The notes beneath the pieces were generated by a model that had not been told where the DNA came from, did no database searches, and worked only from the letters and a program-made list of their open reading frames with translations. Made by a program: the position numbers and the translations under genes. From Mumia sp. ZJ1417 (GTDB lineage Bacteria > Actinomycetota > Actinomycetes > Propionibacteriales > Nocardioidaceae): a stretch of DNA of 64,000 bases. Of this stretch, positions 26,625 through 35,074 are shown one piece after another. The stretch covers positions 930,001-994,000 of the forward strand of contig NZ_CP059901.1 in the NCBI RefSeq assembly GCF_014127285.1, written 5' to 3'. Numbering within the stretch: the stretch's first letter is position 1; the number at the start of each line of letters is the position of its first letter.

Positions 26625-27662
26625 TCAGCCGTCGTAGTCGATCGCGGCGTACGCCCTGAGCTTCTCCATGCGGTGCTCGGAGATGATCTTGCGGTACGTG
26701 CCGGAGCGCGAGCGCATCACGAGCGACTCCGTGACGGCGATGCCCGAGCCGTAGCGGACCCCGTTCATCAGCTCGCCGTCGGTGATGCCGGTCGCGACGA
26801 AGAAGCAGTCGTCGCCCTTCACGAGGTCGTCCGTGCCGAGCACGGCATCGACGTCGAGCCCGGCGTCGACGGCCTTCTGGCGCTCCTCGTCGTCGGTCGG
26901 CCAGAGCTTGCCCTGGATCGCACCGCCGAGGGCCTTCATCGCGCAGGCGCTGATGATCCCCTCCGGCGTGCCGCCGACGCCGGCGAGGATGTCGACGCCG
27001 GTGCCAGGGCGTGCCGCGTAGATCGAGCCCGCGACGTCGCCATCGGAGATGAACTTGATGCGGGCGCCGGTCGCGCGGATCTCGTCGACGAGCTGCGAGT
27101 GACGCGGTCGGTCGAGGACGCAGACCGTGACCGACGAGACGGAGAGGTTCTTGGCCTTGGCGACCAGCCGGATGTTCTCTGAGATCGGGAGGCGGATGTC
27201 GATGACGTCGGCGGCCTCGGGGCCCACGGCGAGCTTGTCCATGTAGAAGACGGCGGACGGGTCGAACATCGCCCCACGAGGCGCGACCGCGAGCACGGAC
27301 ACGGCGCCGGGCATGCCCTTGGCGGTCAGGGTGGTGCCGTCGATCGGGTCGACGGCGACGTCGGCAGCCGGACCGGTGCCGTCACCGACCTGCTCGCCGT
27401 TGAAGAGCATCGGCGCGTTGTCCTTCTCGCCCTCGCCGATGACGACGACGCCGCTCATGCCGACGGTGTTGATCAGCGACCGCATCGCGTTCACCGCGAC
27501 ACCGTCCGCGCCGTTCTTGTCTCCCCGCCCGACCCAGCGTCCAGCAGCCATAGCCGCAGCCTCGGTGACCCGGACGAGGTCCAGGGCGAGGTTGCGGTCG
27601 GGTGCCTCCGCGGCGGGGGTGAGTGGGCCTGGCAGCTTCGATCCGTGCGCGCTGGCGGTCAT
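26625..27662 (-). CDS. glpX: Class II fructose-1,6-bisphosphatase
   Basis: 345 residues; hydrolyses fructose-1,6-bisphosphate to fructose-6-phosphate in gluconeogenesis, metal-dependent. Motifs are clear: [32 protein letters not shown], and [15 protein letters not shown] (about residues 99-113, Asp-Pro-Ile-Asp metal site), and [20 protein letters not shown]. The ATG at 27662 gives [13 protein letters not shown]. It heads the tight cluster glpX, PfkB kinase, hydrolase, spermidine-synthase-like, fumC, a plausible operon. The FBPase of many actinobacteria is only of this class. Confidence 0.95.
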
Positions 27663-28232
27663 GGCCGCATCTTACGTCCGGGGCGCCGCGCGGCCGGGGG
27701 CGGCATTTTCGCGGACCGCACCACAATTGCCGCCGGTGCTCGCTGGCGGCACTGGCTGGCGGCGCAGCGGTGCGGCTGTCAGGAGGGCGACCATCTGATT
27801 GACTCTTGGGTCTTCGGGTCGGTGCTCTCTTCTGGATCGTCGCGTCGAGAGGTTGGTGCGAGCGAGCGTGGTCGACGCGATAAGACGATCCCCTGGCCGG
27901 GGGTGTTCCACGCGAATGCTGCATGCGCGATCGTCTTTCGCAGCCACCGTCCCCGTGGAGCGCTTGAGCGGACGGTGGCGCGCCGTCACTGCTCTTGTCG
28001 GCATGGGCCCGCATTCGCGATCGCGGTCTGGGCGTTCGCTCGCTCTCCGGTGAGTTGACCTTCATCAGGAGTCGAACGTCGCTCGCGGAGCAGTTTGGTC
28101 CACAACGTGCCGACGAGTCTGGAAAGGGCGCCTCGGGTTATCACGGGTTGGTCACGTTCCGGCAGATGGAGTGGTGTTCCACTGTAGCGGCCCGCGAGAT
28201 TTGCGGCTGTGATGCTGCCGTCGGGGTAGCGA
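27663..28232. other. 570-bp intergenic stretch before the RHS gene
   Basis: No convincing gene on either strand; the open frames here look like shadows. It holds the divergent promoters of glpX and the RHS gene. One hairpin stands out: CCACCGTCC at 27944-27952 against GGACGGTGG at 27970-27978, a perfect 9-bp stem. Parts of it (for example 27790-27850) are less GC-rich than the neighbouring genes, in keeping with the edge of an accessory segment. Confidence 0.6.
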
Positions 28233-31200
28233 ATGATGCGGCAGGTTGTACCTGATGTCGTTGGTCGTCGTTGGTCGTCGTTGGTCGTCGCGGTTGTGAC
28301 TCTGGCGCTGGTTGCAGGACTGCTGGCGGGGTCGCCAGCGGCGGCTGAGCCTTCGGCTCCAGCGGACCCACCACCAGCGAAGGCTGCGTCGGATTCGGAC
28401 GGCGACGGCGTGACGGAGCGTCCGGATGCGGTGTCGGCGGCGGTCACCGCCCGGCTTACTGGCGAACCGGTGGAGGACCTGTCCGCTCGTACCGAGTCAG
28501 CGCAGGTGTTTGCGAACCCGGATGGAACGTGGACGTCGGAGACGGCGTCGGGGCCTGTCCGCGTCGCCGACGACGCCGGGGCATGGCGCGTCATCGACAC
28601 GGACGTGGTCGCGACCGCCGACAATGAGGGTTTGGCGGCGCGGTATGCGTCGGCGGATGTGGTGTTCTCCGACGGCGGGGACAAGACGTTCGCGACGGTG
28701 ACCGACAAGGACGGCAACCGGTCGTCGTTCGGGTGGCCGACGGTGCTGCCGAAACCGGTCGTGGACGGCAACATCGTTACCTATCCCGGCGCGGTCGAGA
28801 ACGGCGATCTTGTGGTGACGGCCTTGCCGACGGGGTTCTCGCACTCGGTTGTGCTGCGTGAGGCACCGACGGGTCCGTTGGAGATCCCGATCCCGCTGGA
28901 GACCCCGGAGGGTGAGCTGATTGAGAAGGCCAACGGGTCGCTGGTGCTGAAGGCGGACGGCAAGAAGGTGGTCACCGCCCCGCAGCCGCTGATGTGGGAT
29001 GCCACTGAAGGCCACGACGGGCTCCCGGCGAATGTCGAGCCGGTCGAGACCGCCGTTGAGACCAGCGGCAGCGGTGCCAAGGAGAAGCAGACGCTGGTGC
29101 TGTCGCCCGACGAGGCGTGGCTGTCCGACCCGGCGACCCAGTATCCGGTCACGGTGGACCCGTCCTACACCAGCTACGCCAACGGCGACTCCTGGGTCCA
29201 GAACGCCGACTACACCACCAGCCAAGGCGGCTCGAGCGAGCTTCGGGCGGGCACGTACGACGCCGGCGGTCACAAGGCGCGCTCGTTCGTGAAGTTCATC
29301 GGCATGCTGGCAGACAACGGCGGGTCCGGTCAGGACATCGTCTCGGCGACGTTCAAGATGCGGAACTGGTACTCCGGCTCGTGCACAGCTTCGGCCATCC
29401 GGATCAGCCGCATCACCGAGACCTGGTCAGTCCCAGATTTGACCTGGGCGAACCAACCGACGGTCACCTCAACCGGCTCGAGTACGTTCTCGCCCGCCTA
29501 CGGCTACTCAGCATCGTGTGTCGCCGACGGCAGCCAGGCGACCTGGGATGCAACCGCGATCGTCCAGGCGTGGGCCAACGGGTCTACCAACTGGGGCATC
29601 CGGGTCGCCGCCGACAACGAGGCCAGCAACTACACCTGGCGCAAGTACCGCTCCAGCGAGCACTCTAACCCCGATACGCGCCCACGGATGGCGGTTACCT
29701 ACAACTCATACCCAAACACGGCCGGAACTCCTTCGGTCACGACCTCGCCTGCAAGCTCGTCCGGGTACTCGGTACTGCTCACTCCGACCCTTCGGTCCAC
29801 GGTGGCGGACCCCAACGGTGGCAACGTGCGGGGTATCTTCGAGGTCTACCAAGGAGCAACACTCAAGTGGACCGGGACGTCCGCCTACGTCGCGTCTGGT
29901 TCGAGCGCATCTGTGACGGTCCCGGCCGGGACACTCGCTCACGGCGTCGCCTACTCGGTAAAGGTGCGCGCCAACGACGGAAGTCTGAGCTCGAAGGCAT
30001 ACTCGGCCTCGACGGCTTTCACGACCGACACCGCGAAGCCCGCGGTAGCGATAACCGCATCGGCTTTCACAAATGGGCAATGGCGGCAGGACACGCCGTC
30101 GTCGAACGTGTTTACGCTAACAGGTGCCAGCGATACTGCATCGTTCGCGTACACATTAGACGGCGTGTCCAAGCCTCGGTTGTCTGCGGGAACGGGCGGC
30201 GCCGCATCGCTGGCGTGGCTTCCCGGGAAGGGCTCCCACAAGCTGACGGTGACCCCGACTGACAAGGCCGGCAATGTCGGATCGACGGCAACCTTTACCT
30301 TCGGGTACGGCGGCGCGTCGTTCCTTGCACCCAGCAGTTCCACTCGCTCGACAGCGATGTTCGCCGTGCAGGTGTCTGGTCCCCCGAATGCCACCACAGC
30401 GGCACTGTCGTGGCGCTACTCGGGGCAAACCGCGTGGCATCCGGTCCAGGGACTCGCCGACGATGGTGAGCCGTGGCTGGGAACGGTCACGAACGCCAGC
30501 GACGGATCGGCGTCGACCTCACCTGCGCTTCTGTGGGACGCAACGGCGCAGGAAGACCCCGCAAGCGCTGCGGTGCCGAAGGCGGCGATCAAGGCGCCTG
30601 CCCTGATCGAGCTGAATGCGTGCTTCACCTACGCGGGAACGCCGTCGCAGGTGTGCTCGGGGCCGCGGAAGGTCCAGCTCGTCGACAATGCATTCGGCCC
30701 GAACCTCCCCGTGACCGCGGTCGGGCCGGCCCAGGTGGCGCTGCTGACGGGTGAGATGTCGTTGATGGAGACTGACGCCACCGACACGTTGGCGGGAGTG
30801 GGGCGCACGTTCTCCTCGTTCGACCGATCGACCACGACGCCCGGGCCGTTCGGACCAGGCTGGTCGGACACACTGCTCGCCCCGGGCGAATCCACTGCAG
30901 AGTTGCTTGATCACCGCGCCAAGGACCGTACCTTCGTGCTGGTCACCGCAGGCGGCGCGTCCCAGATGTTCACAACGGTGGACCCGGGCATCGACCCGAC
31001 GGCACCGAACGGGCCTGTGCAGTTCCGACCGGCCGGTGTCGACGACGGAAGCCGCCTCACCCTCGACGGTGCCACGGTGACGTTGACGCGGGCACCGTCC
31101 TCGGAGACGGTGTGGGAGCAGGGCGAGGACGGATCGTGGGTCCTGCTCGAGGCAAGCAACACACCCGAGGAAGAGCCCGAGACGACCTTTACGTTCGATG

Positions 31201-32894
31201 ACGACAGGTTCCTCACCTGGATCGCCGAAACCGAACCCGGGGCTGCCGCAACCTGCACGGCGTCGGTTCAGGAGACGGGTTGTCGGGGTCTCAAGGTCAA
31301 CTACACCGGCACCGGCGATGCTCGACGGGTTTCGACCATCCAACGTGTCGTGGCTGGGCGGCCTGCGGTAACGCTGGCGACCTACACCTACGCCGCCGGG
31401 CGTCTCGGCACGGTGTGTAGCCGCGACCCCGACGGTGCAGGCGCCGGCAAGCCGTTGTGCTCGACGTATGAGTACGACACGACGACGGTCGCCGGTCGTA
31501 CCCTGCTGAAGCGGTTCGCGCCGCCGGGGCAAGTCTCGTGGCAGTTCACCTACGACGCCTCCGGTCGTCTGACGACGGTCACCCGTCCGCTGGATGAGCA
31601 CTCGAACGACGCCACCGGGACGCCCGTCACCTGGACCGTGTCCTACGACCTTGCGACCATCACGGCGGGGCTACCTGACCTCTCTGCGGCATCAGCCGCG
31701 GAGTGGGGGCAGAGCACGGGCCGACGAAGGCCTACGCCGTCTTCAGCCCTGATCACATCCCGGCGGCAACCCCGACGAGCGCGGACCTCGAACACGCGAG
31801 CCTGTGGTTCGTCGATGCTGTCGGTGCAGTCACCAACACCGCGATCCACGGCAACGTCGACGGCATCGGTCAGTGGCTCGTCGATTCGATCTGGTATGAG
31901 AACGGCAACGTGGTGCGGACACTCGACGGCGCCGGGCGTGCGCGCGCACTGGCCGCACCGGCCGCCGAGCGCCCGAGCGTGGCCGCGGAGGCGTCAGCCT
32001 TCACCGTCTACAACGACGACGGCGACGACGATCCCGACGACGGTGACGGCACCCGAGCGGAAGATCAGTTCGGGCCCGTCCGCACCGCCACGCTGCGTGA
32101 CGGCACGACTGGCCCGTACCGACCCCACCAGAGCTTCACCTACGACGACGAAGACCCCACACTCGGTGGCGACAACAAGCCAGAACTGCCGGCCGGAAAG
32201 ACCTCTTTCAATCTCGTTGTCGAAACGACTCGCTCTGCCGCCGATCCCGACTTCGGAGGCGCCCACGATCCCACGATGGTTCGGCTCGACTATTCACCTG
32301 TCGCCGAAGGCGACGGCAACGGTTGGACACTCGGGAGGCCGACCCGCCAACGCATCCGACTCGACGATGGGTCGTGGTCGACTACGGTCACGCGCTACGA
32401 CGCTGCCGGGGCCGAAATCGAGAGTCGGCTTCCCGGCGGAGCATCGGACAGCTCGGGGGTCGGATCCGATGCCTATGCGACGGTCACGACCTACTTCGCA
32501 GTCGACGCCGTCGACGGAGACTGTCGAGCGAACCTTGCCAGCGAGCAACAGCGCCGGGCCTGGATCGGGCTCACCTGCAAGGTCGGTCCTGCCGTGCAAC
32601 CGACCGACCCCTCTATCCCGATCGTCTACTACGCGGACTATGACGAGGACCTCCAGCCCACGCGCATTGAAGAGACGTCCGGTTCGGACACCCGGGTCAC
32701 GACCCACACCTACGACGCGCTCGGGCGAAGCGTCGCCACCACGGTCCAAGCACCCGGCGACACCCGCACGTCCACATTCGAATACGACCCCGAGTCCGGC
32801 CTGCCGACCACGCAGTCGGCCGCCGGTGCGAGCGTCCTCACCGAGTACGACAGCTGGGGACGGGCCTGGAAGTACACCGACGCGAGCGGGATGA
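28233..32894 (+). CDS. RHS-repeat secreted toxin, 5' part (frame lost near 31705)
   Basis: Formal frame of 1553 residues, but only the first about 1159 (to about 31709) read as protein; the rest is out of frame. The N-terminus is a signal peptide (basic head, then LVVAVVTLALVAGLLAGSPAAA). A DNRLRE-type domain spans about residues 300-485 (ARSFVKFIGMLA, ISRITETWSVPDLTWANQP), followed by fibronectin-like segments and the start of the RHS shell (TLAGVGRTFSSFDRS, GPFGPGWSDTLLAPGE, YEYDTTT, FTYDASGRLTTVTRP). Such proteins wrap and export a C-terminal toxin. A 10-bp tandem repeat lies inside the signal-peptide codons (28257-28290). The continuation is the overlapping frame 31703-34591. Confidence 0.85.
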   Translation: MMRQVVPDVVGRRWSSLVVAVVTLALVAGLLAGSPAAAEPSAPADPPPAKAASDSDGDGVTERPDAVSAAVTARLTGEPVEDLSARTESAQVFANPDGTWTSETASGPVRVADDAGAWRVIDTDVVATADNEGLAARYASADVVFSDGGDKTFATVTDKDGNRSSFGWPTVLPKPVVDGNIVTYPGAVENGDLVVTALPTGFSHSVVLREAPTGPLEIPIPLETPEGELIEKANGSLVLKADGKKVVTAPQPLMWDATEGHDGLPANVEPVETAVETSGSGAKEKQTLVLSPDEAWLSDPATQYPVTVDPSYTSYANGDSWVQNADYTTSQGGSSELRAGTYDAGGHKARSFVKFIGMLADNGGSGQDIVSATFKMRNWYSGSCTASAIRISRITETWSVPDLTWANQPTVTSTGSSTFSPAYGYSASCVADGSQATWDATAIVQAWANGSTNWGIRVAADNEASNYTWRKYRSSEHSNPDTRPRMAVTYNSYPNTAGTPSVTTSPASSSGYSVLLTPTLRSTVADPNGGNVRGIFEVYQGATLKWTGTSAYVASGSSASVTVPAGTLAHGVAYSVKVRANDGSLSSKAYSASTAFTTDTAKPAVAITASAFTNGQWRQDTPSSNVFTLTGASDTASFAYTLDGVSKPRLSAGTGGAASLAWLPGKGSHKLTVTPTDKAGNVGSTATFTFGYGGASFLAPSSSTRSTAMFAVQVSGPPNATTAALSWRYSGQTAWHPVQGLADDGEPWLGTVTNASDGSASTSPALLWDATAQEDPASAAVPKAAIKAPALIELNACFTYAGTPSQVCSGPRKVQLVDNAFGPNLPVTAVGPAQVALLTGEMSLMETDATDTLAGVGRTFSSFDRSTTTPGPFGPGWSDTLLAPGESTAELLDHRAKDRTFVLVTAGGASQMFTTVDPGIDPTAPNGPVQFRPAGVDDGSRLTLDGATVTLTRAPSSETVWEQGEDGSWVLLEASNTPEEEPETTFTFDDDRFLTWIAETEPGAAATCTASVQETGCRGLKVNYTGTGDARRVSTIQRVVAGRPAVTLATYTYAAGRLGTVCSRDPDGAGAGKPLCSTYEYDTTTVAGRTLLKRFAPPGQVSWQFTYDASGRLTTVTRPLDEHSNDATGTPVTWTVSYDLATITAGLPDLSAASAAEWGQSTGRRRPTPSSALITSRRQPRRARTSNTRACGSSMLSVQSPTPRSTATSTASVSGSSIRSGMRTATWCGHSTAPGVRAHWPHRPPSARAWPRRRQPSPSTTTTATTIPTTVTAPERKISSGPSAPPRCVTARLARTDPTRASPTTTKTPHSVATTSQNCRPERPLSISLSKRLALPPIPTSEAPTIPRWFGSTIHLSPKATATVGHSGGRPANASDSTMGRGRLRSRATTLPGPKSRVGFPAEHRTARGSDPMPMRRSRPTSQSTPSTETVERTLPASNSAGPGSGSPARSVLPCNRPTPLSRSSTTRTMTRTSSPRALKRRPVRTPGSRPTPTTRSGEASPPRSKHPATPARPHSNTTPSPACRPRSRPPVRASSPSTTAGDGPGSTPTRAG
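28257..28290 (+). repeat. 10-bp tandem repeat in RHS signal-peptide codons
   Basis: GTCGTTGGTC is repeated three times (28257, 28267, 28277) plus GTCG. The period of 10 is not a multiple of three, so gain or loss of one unit would change the reading frame just after the start codon. Confidence 0.85.
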
Positions 32895-34591
32895 CATCGA
32901 CCACCACATTCACCGTCGACGACCAAATTGCAACCGTCGACGACGGCGCCGGAAACTACAGTTTCGTCTACGACGGAAACACCGGCGAGCACCGAGGGCT
33001 CGCGACCGCGGTCACGGTTGGTGGCCTCATCGACGGCGCAGCCGGGACCTTCTCCCTCACGCACGACGCACGCGGCGCCCAGACGTCGGTCACCTACCCC
33101 AACGGGATGTCGTCCCGCACCACCACCAACGAGGCCGGCGTTAGAACAGGGCTGGAGTACCTCGACCCTGACGAACAGCCGATCCTCACCTTCGGCGCCA
33201 CAACCGATGTGCGCGGGCGCACGATCGCCAGCTCATCCGACGTCTCAAGCCAGGCCTACTCCTTCGATGACCTCGGCCGACTGACGCAAGTCCAAGACAG
33301 TCGGGCAGGTGAGTGCCTCACTCGTACCTACGGATTCACCCCAGCGTCCGAGCGAAAAACCTTCGCAGCCTTCGCAGCGGCCGAAGACGGAACTTGCCAG
33401 AGCGCAACACCTTCCGTCCAGGAGATCAGCGAGTACGACACCGCATCGCGGATCCGTGACGACGGCTATGCCTACGACGGCTTCGGTAGAACCATCACCA
33501 TCCCCAAGTCAGACACCGGTCCGGGCGCTGTTAGCGCGTTGGGCGTGAGTTACTTCGCGAACGATATGGTGGAGTCACTCACCCAGGATGTCGACAACGG
33601 AATGGGCGGGACGAATCAGCGTCGGATCTCCTATGTGCTCGAACCGATCGACCGTATCGGATCGATCATCAATGCAAGCAACGACGTCGAGGGCAGTCGT
33701 CTCAGGTACCGGTACTCCGACGACTCCGACTCCCCAACGAGTGTCCAATCCTCCATCGACGGCGGAGACACCTGGACCAGCACCCGATACGTCACCCTGC
33801 CCGACCTCGGCATGGTCGCCTCCGTCTCGGGCACCGACACCGTGTTTCAGCTGGCAAACCTTCACGGGGACATCGTCGCAACACAGAACCAGACCCCCGA
33901 CGTCCCCATCGCGATCGACACCTATACCGAAAGTGACGAATACGGCAACCCGATCGAGTCGGCCCACTCGAGCCGATACGGGTGGCTCGGCTCCCATCAG
34001 CGATCGTCCGACACCCTCGGCGGACTGGTGCTCATGGGCGCCCGCCTCTACAACCCCAGCACCGGCCTCTTCACCTCCCCAGACCCCATCCGCAACGGCG
34101 GAGCAAACCCGTACGCGTATCCCACCGACCCCATCAACGTCTGGGACCCAACTGGGGCGGGATGGGCGGATCTCGGTAATCTGGCGCTCGTCTTTTTCGA
34201 GACTGCGCTAGGTACATTTTGTAGGACGACTGGACTTGCTGGCTTCGCCTGCGCTGCCGGCCTTGGCGGGCTTATGGGTGCCGCGGGGTACGCCTTTAAA
34301 GTAGGGTTCTCGTCGAATAAGTTCAGCTGGAACGGGCTTGGGATGGCGGCTAGCTACGGAGCACTTGCCGGAGTTGTAGGGTACATCGGCCCAAAATTCG
34401 GGAACTGGGTTAAGAGCAATGCGGAGAAGTTGATCCGCGGTACTAACCGGGCGATTGACCGCATGGCAAAGAAGCTTCGGAAATTTGCTGGCAAGTATGG
34501 TTTGCGGAGTCTGGCGAATAGGGTCACTGATTTTGTAGTCACTGTCAGGTACTATGTCGAGTACTTCTTCAGAATCTGGCTCTATGAATAG
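31703..34591 (+). CDS. RHS-repeat secreted toxin, 3' part with toxin tip
   Basis: 962 residues in the -1 frame relative to the 5' part; the junction is a five-G run at 31705-31709. Restoring one G would join ...AEWG to AEHGPTKAYAVF... and give a protein of about 2,119 residues. The segment carries many YD-repeats (YDALGRSVATT, FEYDPESGLPTTQ, YSFDDLGRLTQV, YAYDGFGRTITIP) and the RHS core closing motif LMGARLYNPSTGLFTSPDPI...NPYAYPTDPINVWDPTG, ending near 34158. The remaining about 143 residues are a variable tip: two glycine-rich hydrophobic segments, a basic helix (KSNAEKLIRGTNRAIDRMAK) and an aromatic end. The DNA of the tip is AT-richer: 34501-34560 has 28 G+C of 60. Confidence 0.85.
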   Translation: MGAEHGPTKAYAVFSPDHIPAATPTSADLEHASLWFVDAVGAVTNTAIHGNVDGIGQWLVDSIWYENGNVVRTLDGAGRARALAAPAAERPSVAAEASAFTVYNDDGDDDPDDGDGTRAEDQFGPVRTATLRDGTTGPYRPHQSFTYDDEDPTLGGDNKPELPAGKTSFNLVVETTRSAADPDFGGAHDPTMVRLDYSPVAEGDGNGWTLGRPTRQRIRLDDGSWSTTVTRYDAAGAEIESRLPGGASDSSGVGSDAYATVTTYFAVDAVDGDCRANLASEQQRRAWIGLTCKVGPAVQPTDPSIPIVYYADYDEDLQPTRIEETSGSDTRVTTHTYDALGRSVATTVQAPGDTRTSTFEYDPESGLPTTQSAAGASVLTEYDSWGRAWKYTDASGMTSTTTFTVDDQIATVDDGAGNYSFVYDGNTGEHRGLATAVTVGGLIDGAAGTFSLTHDARGAQTSVTYPNGMSSRTTTNEAGVRTGLEYLDPDEQPILTFGATTDVRGRTIASSSDVSSQAYSFDDLGRLTQVQDSRAGECLTRTYGFTPASERKTFAAFAAAEDGTCQSATPSVQEISEYDTASRIRDDGYAYDGFGRTITIPKSDTGPGAVSALGVSYFANDMVESLTQDVDNGMGGTNQRRISYVLEPIDRIGSIINASNDVEGSRLRYRYSDDSDSPTSVQSSIDGGDTWTSTRYVTLPDLGMVASVSGTDTVFQLANLHGDIVATQNQTPDVPIAIDTYTESDEYGNPIESAHSSRYGWLGSHQRSSDTLGGLVLMGARLYNPSTGLFTSPDPIRNGGANPYAYPTDPINVWDPTGAGWADLGNLALVFFETALGTFCRTTGLAGFACAAGLGGLMGAAGYAFKVGFSSNKFSWNGLGMAASYGALAGVVGYIGPKFGNWVKSNAEKLIRGTNRAIDRMAKKLRKFAGKYGLRSLANRVTDFVVTVRYYVEYFFRIWLYE

Positions 34592-34660
34592 GCCAGGCGC
34601 TGTACGCGATTTGAAGCGACTGAATTCGAAGGCTTTCCTCTTCAGGAGAGGGTTTCCGAT

Positions 34661-34993
34661 ATGTGGTCGTTAATTCTCGAATCCGCGCCTTGGGTTGCGA
34701 CTGCTCTGGCCGGCGGGATATTCGGCCATGTCTTTTGGCGGTGGTTCGATCGCCGGATGCCGGATGGCTGGCGGCCGACGCTGGCGGTCATCGGAATCCT
34801 CATTGCGATCTTCGGTGCATCGCTCACTGCCCTGGCTCTGCTTCCCGAATCGAAGCAGATCACGGGTCTATTTGTCGCTCTATCTGCAGCCTCCCCGCTC
34901 TTCGCGGTCTTGGCGATCGCCAGGAAGGCGCGTCATTCGGTTAGCGTGCGCCTGGAACGGAACGGCGCGAATGATGATCAGATCGACGCGTAG
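34661..34993 (+). CDS. Candidate membrane immunity protein for the RHS tip
   Basis: 110 residues beginning MWSLILESAPWVATALAGG. It has about three hydrophobic helices (residues about 8-26, 41-62 and 66-88: WRPTLAVIGILIAIFGASLTALALL; ITGLFVALSAASPLFAVLAIA) and a charged tail. A clear ribosome site (aggagagg, 34644-34652) precedes the ATG. It starts 69 nt after the RHS stop on the same strand in the same AT-richer DNA, the standard position of an immunity gene in polymorphic toxin loci. I recognise no family. Assignment as immunity protein rests on position and size. Confidence 0.6.
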   Translation: MWSLILESAPWVATALAGGIFGHVFWRWFDRRMPDGWRPTLAVIGILIAIFGASLTALALLPESKQITGLFVALSAASPLFAVLAIARKARHSVSVRLERNGANDDQIDA

Positions 34994-35074
34994 ATGCAGG
35001 GAGACGCTCACCAACCTCGTCGATCGCGCCCGGGCCAACGCAAAGTGCGGGCGCGCGGTGCGGATTTCGCGGCG

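Follow-up and report, generated by a model that had tools for sequence, protein, structure and literature searches.

The question raised by this locus is whether the variable end of an RHS gene and the small membrane-protein gene behind it form a toxin-immunity pair and, if they do, whether the membrane-type partner tells us how such a toxin would act. The locus lies within the window analysed here, a stretch of 64,000 nucleotides that corresponds to bases 930001-994000 of a one-contig 4.19-Mb genome; gene content and G+C point to an actinobacterium, perhaps one of the Nocardioidaceae. The features of the locus are collected in Table 1. Systems in which an immunity gene sits next to an RHS tip are known, as is a pore-forming RHS tip with a membrane immunity protein (Tse5/Tsi5); what is new here is the sequence pair and a small census of the tips of the family.

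Table 1. Features of the RHS locus, numbered from the first base of the window
Feature	Position	Strand	Remarks
glpX	26625-27662	-	left flank of the island
Island missing from four of five sister genomes	27738-35031	.	between glpX and modC; edges good to tens of bases
RHS N-part	28233-31701	+	signal-peptide-like start (by eye in the translation), DNRLRE/CBM96-type domain, first YD repeats; from the ORF table, open in its own frame
RHS C-part of core	31703-34159	+	further repeats and RHS-associated core domain; ends at the D..X17..D..G boundary; frame differs from N-part
Variable C-terminal tip, 143 aa, candidate toxin	34160-34591, including stop	+	weakly hydrophobic Gly-rich segments, basic amphipathic helix, aromatic end
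Ribosome binding site AGGAGAGG of the neighbour gene	34644-34651	+	ends 9 nt upstream of the start codon (ATG)
Candidate immunity protein of the membrane type, 110 aa	34661-34993	+	hydrophobic segments, AF2 model
modC	from about 35075	-	right flank of the island

A split RHS gene

Profile searches found a DNRLRE domain (NCBIfam, E 2.4e-24) and CBM96 (Pfam, 39.4 bits against a cut-off of 26) in the N-part and the Rhs_assc_core domain TIGR03696 (NCBIfam, 51.6 bits against a cut-off of 32.5, E 9.8e-14) in the C-part, and RHS_repeat was matched at 27 bits (Pfam cut-off 22). We class these pieces as parts of an RHS gene and not this copy as a working toxin. According to the ORF table, the two parts lie in different frames that meet near 31.70 kb, whereas in all eight relatives compared, the N-part and C-part, searched separately, aligned back to back in a single frame, with the N-part query ending at residues 480-499 of 500 and the C-part starting at residues 2-12. 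These eight loci (L004 and L021-L027) have open frames of 1968-2423 aa; the comparison left out L028/L029, which are from the same genus, and L030, which is the same gene as L027. A ninth relative, from the same genus (G004, L028/L029), has an open frame of just 640 aa, and several core matches among the family genomes fall in short frames or are interrupted by stops, some of them near contig ends, so incomplete RHS copies do occur. Past the break in the window, 962 codons are open in the C-part, and the third positions in the core are of the coding type. The break at 31.70 kb is either that of a broken copy or an assembly error, and a sequencing error is possible. As sequenced, the split gene may fail to yield a full-length protein, and the lack of a single intact frame from the export signal to the tip weakens the claim that it works. 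The same genome holds a second RHS gene (C1:631139), read in a single open frame of 2109 aa; its tip is unrelated, and the 230-aa protein encoded next to it has no membrane segments.

The tip, its neighbour and their island

The earlier note, made from the letters of the window, had the core end at NPYAY...DPTG, and this reading stood, with the last base of DPTG at 34156, as did the coordinates and lengths it gave for tip and neighbour; the frame break in the RHS gene is not mentioned in it. When the whole C-part (962 aa) was used as the query, matches in other RHS genes stopped at residues 818-820, the tip boundary, wherever they reached that far. A second query, the last 260 core residues, gave 37 matches in 27 of the 335 family genomes, which were resolved to 30 loci including the window's own (L047), with 7 matches not assigned to a locus. 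In 28 of the 30 loci, the core ends in two aspartates 21 residues apart followed by the D..G pattern, the exceptions being L063, with a spacing of 22, and L072, without the glycine; 4 of the 28 are without the proline after the first aspartate. Past this boundary, the tips are mostly unlike each other in an all-against-all comparison.

Tip and neighbour also share a composition of their own. The stretch 34160-34993 has a G+C content of 56.5%, the lowest for its length in the window: when segments of 834 nt were sampled at 20-nt steps (3159 in all), no more than 2 had so little G+C or less, and the minimum fell on the segment that starts at 34161, which is the stretch itself. A hand count agreed with the 28 of 60 G+C that had been given for 34501-34560. 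At third codon positions, the C-part of the core has a G+C fraction of 0.79, against 0.61 for the tip and 0.69 for the neighbour. The two genes further belong to an island of 7.3 kb that, besides the RHS gene with its tip and the neighbour, includes about 0.5 kb ahead of the RHS start. In four sister genomes, the gap between glpX and modC is 83 (G004), 108 (G005), 137 (G003), or 169 bp (G002), and for G003, alignment to the window breaks off near 27737 and resumes near 35032; the fifth sister (G001) has some 4.2 kb between the two genes, which contain other open frames. It is on these three lines, boundary, composition, and island, that we take the cassette to be more than a chance association, and the position, composition, and island linkage of the neighbour fit a cognate immunity gene behind an RHS tip. 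The neighbour is present once in the genome, as is the pair of tip and neighbour. With the cassette placed exactly at the point of exchange, no known family for either member in the searches made, and an RHS island that four of five sisters lack, the proposal of a candidate toxin-immunity pair holds up, and we consider it very probable that tip and neighbour form a polymorphic toxin-immunity cassette, in which the tip would be toxic and the neighbour would protect against it.

The tip has two Gly/Ala-rich stretches (residues 25-43 and about 58-76) that had been described as glycine-rich hydrophobic segments. They are glycine rich, but their hydrophobicity is weak: the best segment, 25-43, has a Kyte-Doolittle mean of 1.40 and an unfavourable octanol-scale sum, and the second stays below 1.3, where the usual cut for a membrane segment is 1.6. 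The basic helix and the aromatic end described earlier are both present. The helix, at residues about 85-115, is strongly amphipathic, with a maximum hydrophobic moment of 0.84 for the C-terminal half of the tip against a mean of 0.51 in shuffles of the C-terminal 68 residues (P 0.002), which places the window tip second among the 29 tips compared. The tip has a net charge of +11 and no histidine, a catalytic Cys/His/Asp constellation is not visible, and no nuclease motif was seen when the tip was read for one. Two matches to the glycine-zipper pattern (G/A/S)xxxGxxxG were found, a count like that of shuffled tips (mean 1.14, P 0.32), and the zipper was rejected as evidence. A single-sequence AF2 model of the tip is all helical (H3-23, H28-48, H58-113, and H116-142) at low confidence (mean pLDDT 59), and a Foldseek search of this model against the PDB gave 0 matches at E 0.001.

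The neighbour, with its own ribosome binding site, is of the three-helix membrane type that had been ascribed to it, both in its hydrophobic segments, two of them clear (residues 43-61 and 69-87) and one weaker (4-22, mean 1.36), and in its single-sequence AF2 model, which has three long helices (mean pLDDT 72) and 0 Foldseek matches in the PDB at E 0.001. By the positive-inside rule, basic stretches stay inside, and the basic stretches of the protein would place its C-terminus there, with the N-terminus predicted to be outside.

Searches for relatives of the tip returned no known toxin family; a match of that kind would have spoken against the pair. Weak matches, none above noise, were all that Pfam, NCBIfam, PHROGs, and PADLOC gave, the best PADLOC match (LeoBC, 0.0026) being read as helical noise; the best E value among PDB sequences was 0.53, tblastn against plasmids and phages gave no match, and pattern scans of genome contigs and viral contigs gave none that was confirmed. 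In genome sets that overlap one another, the tip found its own copy only in 6 genus and 341 family genomes and, at E 0.001, in 394 class genomes, while 391 order genomes gave its own copy and 16 weak matches of at most 21.9 bits; four of these 16 were opened (L031, L035, L040, and L042), and none lies in an RHS gene. A likeness to the same-genus tip of L064 (phmmer 0.0014 in a set of 30 sequences, BLAST 21.6 bits) did not survive a control with 200 shuffled tips, at least 15 of which scored 21.6 bits or more and the best 25.4, and it was rejected. For the neighbour, no curated cut-off was reached in Pfam or NCBIfam (best Pfam match PF22285, 0.0028), matches in PADLOC (0.038) and to a PHROG holin (0.14) were weak, the best PDB sequence was at 0.054, plasmids, phages, and genome contigs gave nothing, and the 6 genus genomes gave its own copy only. 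At E 0.01, 17 of the 341 family genomes were hit, by its own copy and 16 weak matches (best 2.4e-5, 29% identity); the latter lie inside open frames of 219 to 1771 aa and were read from the table as hydrophobic background. Conservation of the neighbour away from RHS genes, which would count against a pair, was not found in these searches. Tip and neighbour thus appear by sequence to be an orphan pair, with no convincing relative and no known family in the searches made, those for the neighbour covering genus and family genomes. In the open-licence literature on pore-forming Rhs and on actinobacterial or WapA-type RHS toxins, no paper was recognised as describing the pair, which says little, and none was found there on a Nocardioid Rhs toxin with its immunity protein.

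Tips and neighbours across the family

The counts that follow refer to 27 relatives, from which the window's own locus, L063 (which runs off its contig), and L072 (a 12-residue remnant) were left out. Likenesses among tips were limited to the pairs L048/L049, L053/L065, and L055/L070 and to a group that shares HINT or a basic linker (L060, L066, L067, L073, and L074); in L048/L049, tip and neighbour are conserved together, at 72% and 84%. Behind most of the relatives' tips there is a close downstream gene, which in most relatives overlaps the tip gene or nearly touches it, compared to a gap of 69 nt between tip stop and neighbour start in the window. The tip is lower in G+C than its own core by at least 0.02 in 22 of the 27. 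A Pfam scan, also of 27 relatives' tips but with L049 left out and the cut-off tip of L063 included, left 24 under every cut-off; only the tips of L060, L073, and L074 reached one, all through HINT, which is followed by DUF4258 in L060 and by Cytotoxic in L073. Since most of the relatives' tips match nothing, matching no known toxin is the rule here.

Membrane neighbours were found for nine of the 27 relatives (L052, L054, L056, L057, L058, L059, L062, L064, and L071). Each was chosen by hand among the three ORFs next downstream; for L054 and L071, this meant skipping a short overlapping ORF that has no segments, and the neighbour of L064 is a 58-aa ORF with one segment above 1.5. Membrane proteins make up about a quarter of bacterial proteins, and nine of 27 is modestly above that share. 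A hydrophobic segment comparable to that of the window tip occurs in the first 80 residues of seven of the 27 tips, and for six of these (L053, L060, L065, L066, L068, and L075; the exception is L059), the neighbour is without membrane segments. The expected association of hydrophobic tips with membrane neighbours was therefore not found (1 of 7, versus 8 of the 20 tips without such a segment). Nor was it found for amphipathic tips: among the four with the highest moments, the window tip alone has a membrane neighbour, those of L060, L068, and L075 being without membrane segments. As both properties go mostly with non-membrane neighbours, neither marks a membrane toxin, and the Gly-rich part of the window tip may be a linker, as the earlier note had itself cautioned, or an entry segment.

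The tip of L052 contains what we take to be a phospholipase-A2-like motif; it has no Pfam match, and its neighbour has four membrane segments. With such a tip among the nine that have a membrane neighbour, a neighbour of this type points to the envelope and not to a pore. The family comparison weakens two steps of the earlier argument, the one that started from the hydrophobic segments of the tip and the one that led from membrane immunity to a pore.

Known systems and the mode of action

Tse5 of Pseudomonas aeruginosa is a pore-forming RHS tip, and for Tsi5, the protein that confers immunity to it, two membrane helices are predicted (PMC9637101, PMC10684867). The likeness lies in an RHS core that ends in a variable tip of comparable length (Tse5-CT, residues 1169-1317), predicted to be helical and without predicted enzyme activity, and in an immunity protein that is integral to the membrane, the window neighbour being of the membrane type by its segments. 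The differences are delivery, through the T6SS for Tse5 but from a putatively secreted wall-type RHS protein in the window, and the two predicted helices of Tsi5 against three. The canonical DPXGX18DPXG aspartyl protease motif of Tse5-type cleavage was present in none of the 30 loci, the window included, whose boundary has the two aspartates 21 apart and is missing the first glycine, and a Tse5-type filing was rejected on this ground. CDI ionophore toxins of the CT-EC93 kind combine a helical membrane toxin and an N-terminal entry part with a small, very hydrophobic immunity protein and strong polymorphism (PMC11630599). The likeness is a helical tip, predicted for the window by a low-confidence model, and a small hydrophobic partner; CdiA, in contrast, is not an RHS protein and is Gram-negative, the ionophore domain has five helices, and the E. 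coli immunity proteins have 72-100 residues and two helices (PMC11630599). We rejected this filing on the 110-residue, three-segment partner; the tip model shows four helices at low confidence. The T7SS membrane-depolarising toxins EsxX/ExiCD and TspA/TsaI come from Gram-positive producers with membrane-bound immunity against a toxin that arrives from outside; they are LXG or T7SS substrates rather than RHS proteins, and their defining feature is a glycine zipper (PMC12744356). With the count of that motif at chance level in the window tip, we do not file the tip with EsxX, TelE, and TspA. Tox-WTIP is described as a predicted non-enzymatic two-helix membrane pore-forming domain with RHS repeats among its settings (PMC3482391); this filing was rejected as well, since Wx[ST]IP is absent and none of the four tryptophans of the tip stands, by eye, in that context.

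Our best explanation, which we hold tentatively and at close to an even chance, is an RHS-delivered helical membrane toxin that is blocked by a three-helix immunity protein. The RHS shell, a secreted wall-type protein, would export the 143-residue tip, which would act as a small all-helical toxin on the cytoplasmic membrane of competing bacteria: its basic amphipathic helix would bind to the surface of the lipid, and the helices next to it would insert and make the membrane permeable to ions. The 110-residue protein in the producer's own membrane would block the tip there. A target at the level of the membrane is somewhat favoured in our judgement, whereas a pore or ionophore is a more doubtful proposition, if a reasonable one. 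Membrane action of the tip is possible on the combination of a membrane neighbour, no enzyme signature, a helical, amphipathic, and basic tip, and the precedents of Tse5 and CDI; the weakness of the tip segments, the zipper count at chance, the low-confidence model, the 69-nt gap, the frame break, and the lack of a homologue all speak against a membrane toxin.

Some of the same observations can be read otherwise. The Gly-rich part (residues about 1-76) could be a linker or entry segment, with a toxin confined to the last 65-70 basic residues that acts on nucleic acid or ribosomes inside the cell and a membrane protein that blocks its entry. Zhang et al. suggested that immunity proteins with two helices could act by keeping a toxin from being taken up (PMC3482391), and the net charge of the tip would suit such a toxin. 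Hydrophobic segments also precede the HINT/DUF4258 tip of L060 and the tips of L053 and L065, in which a presumed GIY-YIG-like motif gives a nuclease look. We nevertheless regard this as unlikely, as the tip has no nuclease motif that could be seen and no Pfam or NCBIfam match, its low-confidence model is helical throughout, and 65-70 residues are small for an enzyme. Still less probable is a tip that works as an enzyme on the envelope, or as a toxin against lipid or cell wall that forms no pore. The precedent for this is L052: its phospholipase-A2-like motif, unmatched in Pfam, beside a four-segment neighbour indicates that membrane immunity is not specific to pores, but a tip with no histidine, no visible catalytic constellation, and no match in Pfam or NCBIfam does not look like such an enzyme.

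That the gene end is dead, with the tip drifted or truncated after the frame break and inactive and the neighbour a leftover, we also consider improbable, though marginally less so than an envelope enzyme. The break stands out against eight continuous relatives, broken copies such as that of G004 occur, and the tip matches nothing; yet most other tips match nothing either, the long open frame past the break retains coding-type third positions in its core, the neighbour has an open frame preceded by a ribosome site, and the break itself may be a sequencing error.

If the membrane-toxin explanation is pursued to its furthest extent, tip and partner would be founders of a new family of membrane-active RHS toxins in Gram-positive actinobacteria, helical proteins that strike the cytoplasmic membrane from the outer side without having to be imported and are countered by membrane immunity, and up to 9 of the 27 other RHS loci could share this mode with unrelated sequences; we think this rather unlikely, if a shade less so than a toxin behind an entry linker. 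The RHS tips of the family Nocardioidaceae are largely unclassified, as the Pfam scan of the relatives indicates, and for the one described here, the membrane partner points to the envelope. If our best explanation is true, the pair would add a secreted, probably Gram-positive case to the pore-forming RHS toxins, of which Tse5 is the case found in the literature surveyed.

Interval between glpX and modC

The genes glpX and modC are separated by only 83-169 bp in four sister genomes, whereas they enclose a 7.3-kb RHS unit in the window and stand about 4.2 kb apart, with different open frames between them, in the fifth sister (L089), and the interval therefore looks like an exchange slot. The window RHS gene changes reading frame partway along its length. 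Alignment of its N-part and C-part revealed a single uninterrupted frame across the matching position in all eight relatives compared, and the window gene is either damaged or carries a sequencing error.

Coordinates of the interval and RHS features
Feature	Location	Description
glpX-modC interval	27738-35031 (window)	7.3-kb RHS unit
Frame change	about 31680-31720 (window)	Window RHS gene
L004/L075	G000:C1 from about 631139	This genome's second RHS gene, outside the window
L028/L029	G004:C6:12203-13726	RHS locus of a same-genus genome
L052	G286:C1:3879502	RHS tip and overlapping downstream ORF

Other RHS loci and their neighbours

The second RHS gene of this genome stays open in a single frame over 2109 aa and has a basic, 117-aa tip unrelated to that of the window, and it is overlapped by a 230-aa gene without membrane segments. 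The L028/L029 locus is confined to a 640-aa open frame whose tip has a hydrophobic end and is overlapped by a 58-aa membrane-type ORF; judged by sequence, it is a further incomplete RHS copy with a membrane neighbour. The L052 tip had no match in Pfam, and it holds a Cys/His-Asp/Cys stretch that we take to be a phospholipase-A2-like motif. With its overlapping 154-aa ORF of four membrane segments, L052 is a candidate lipase tip with membrane immunity.

Relatedness of tips between loci

All-against-all comparison showed a sole case in which tip and downstream gene were kept together in two genomes, namely, L048 and L049 (72% identity between tips and 84% between downstream genes); the L048 tip, the one of the two included in the Pfam scan, fell below every cut-off. 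The same comparison gave 46% identity over 107 aa for the tips of L053 and L065, both presumably GIY-YIG-like by motif. Since each of these related tips lies behind a hydrophobic segment of its own, their sequences suggest that linker and toxin may be exchanged separately.
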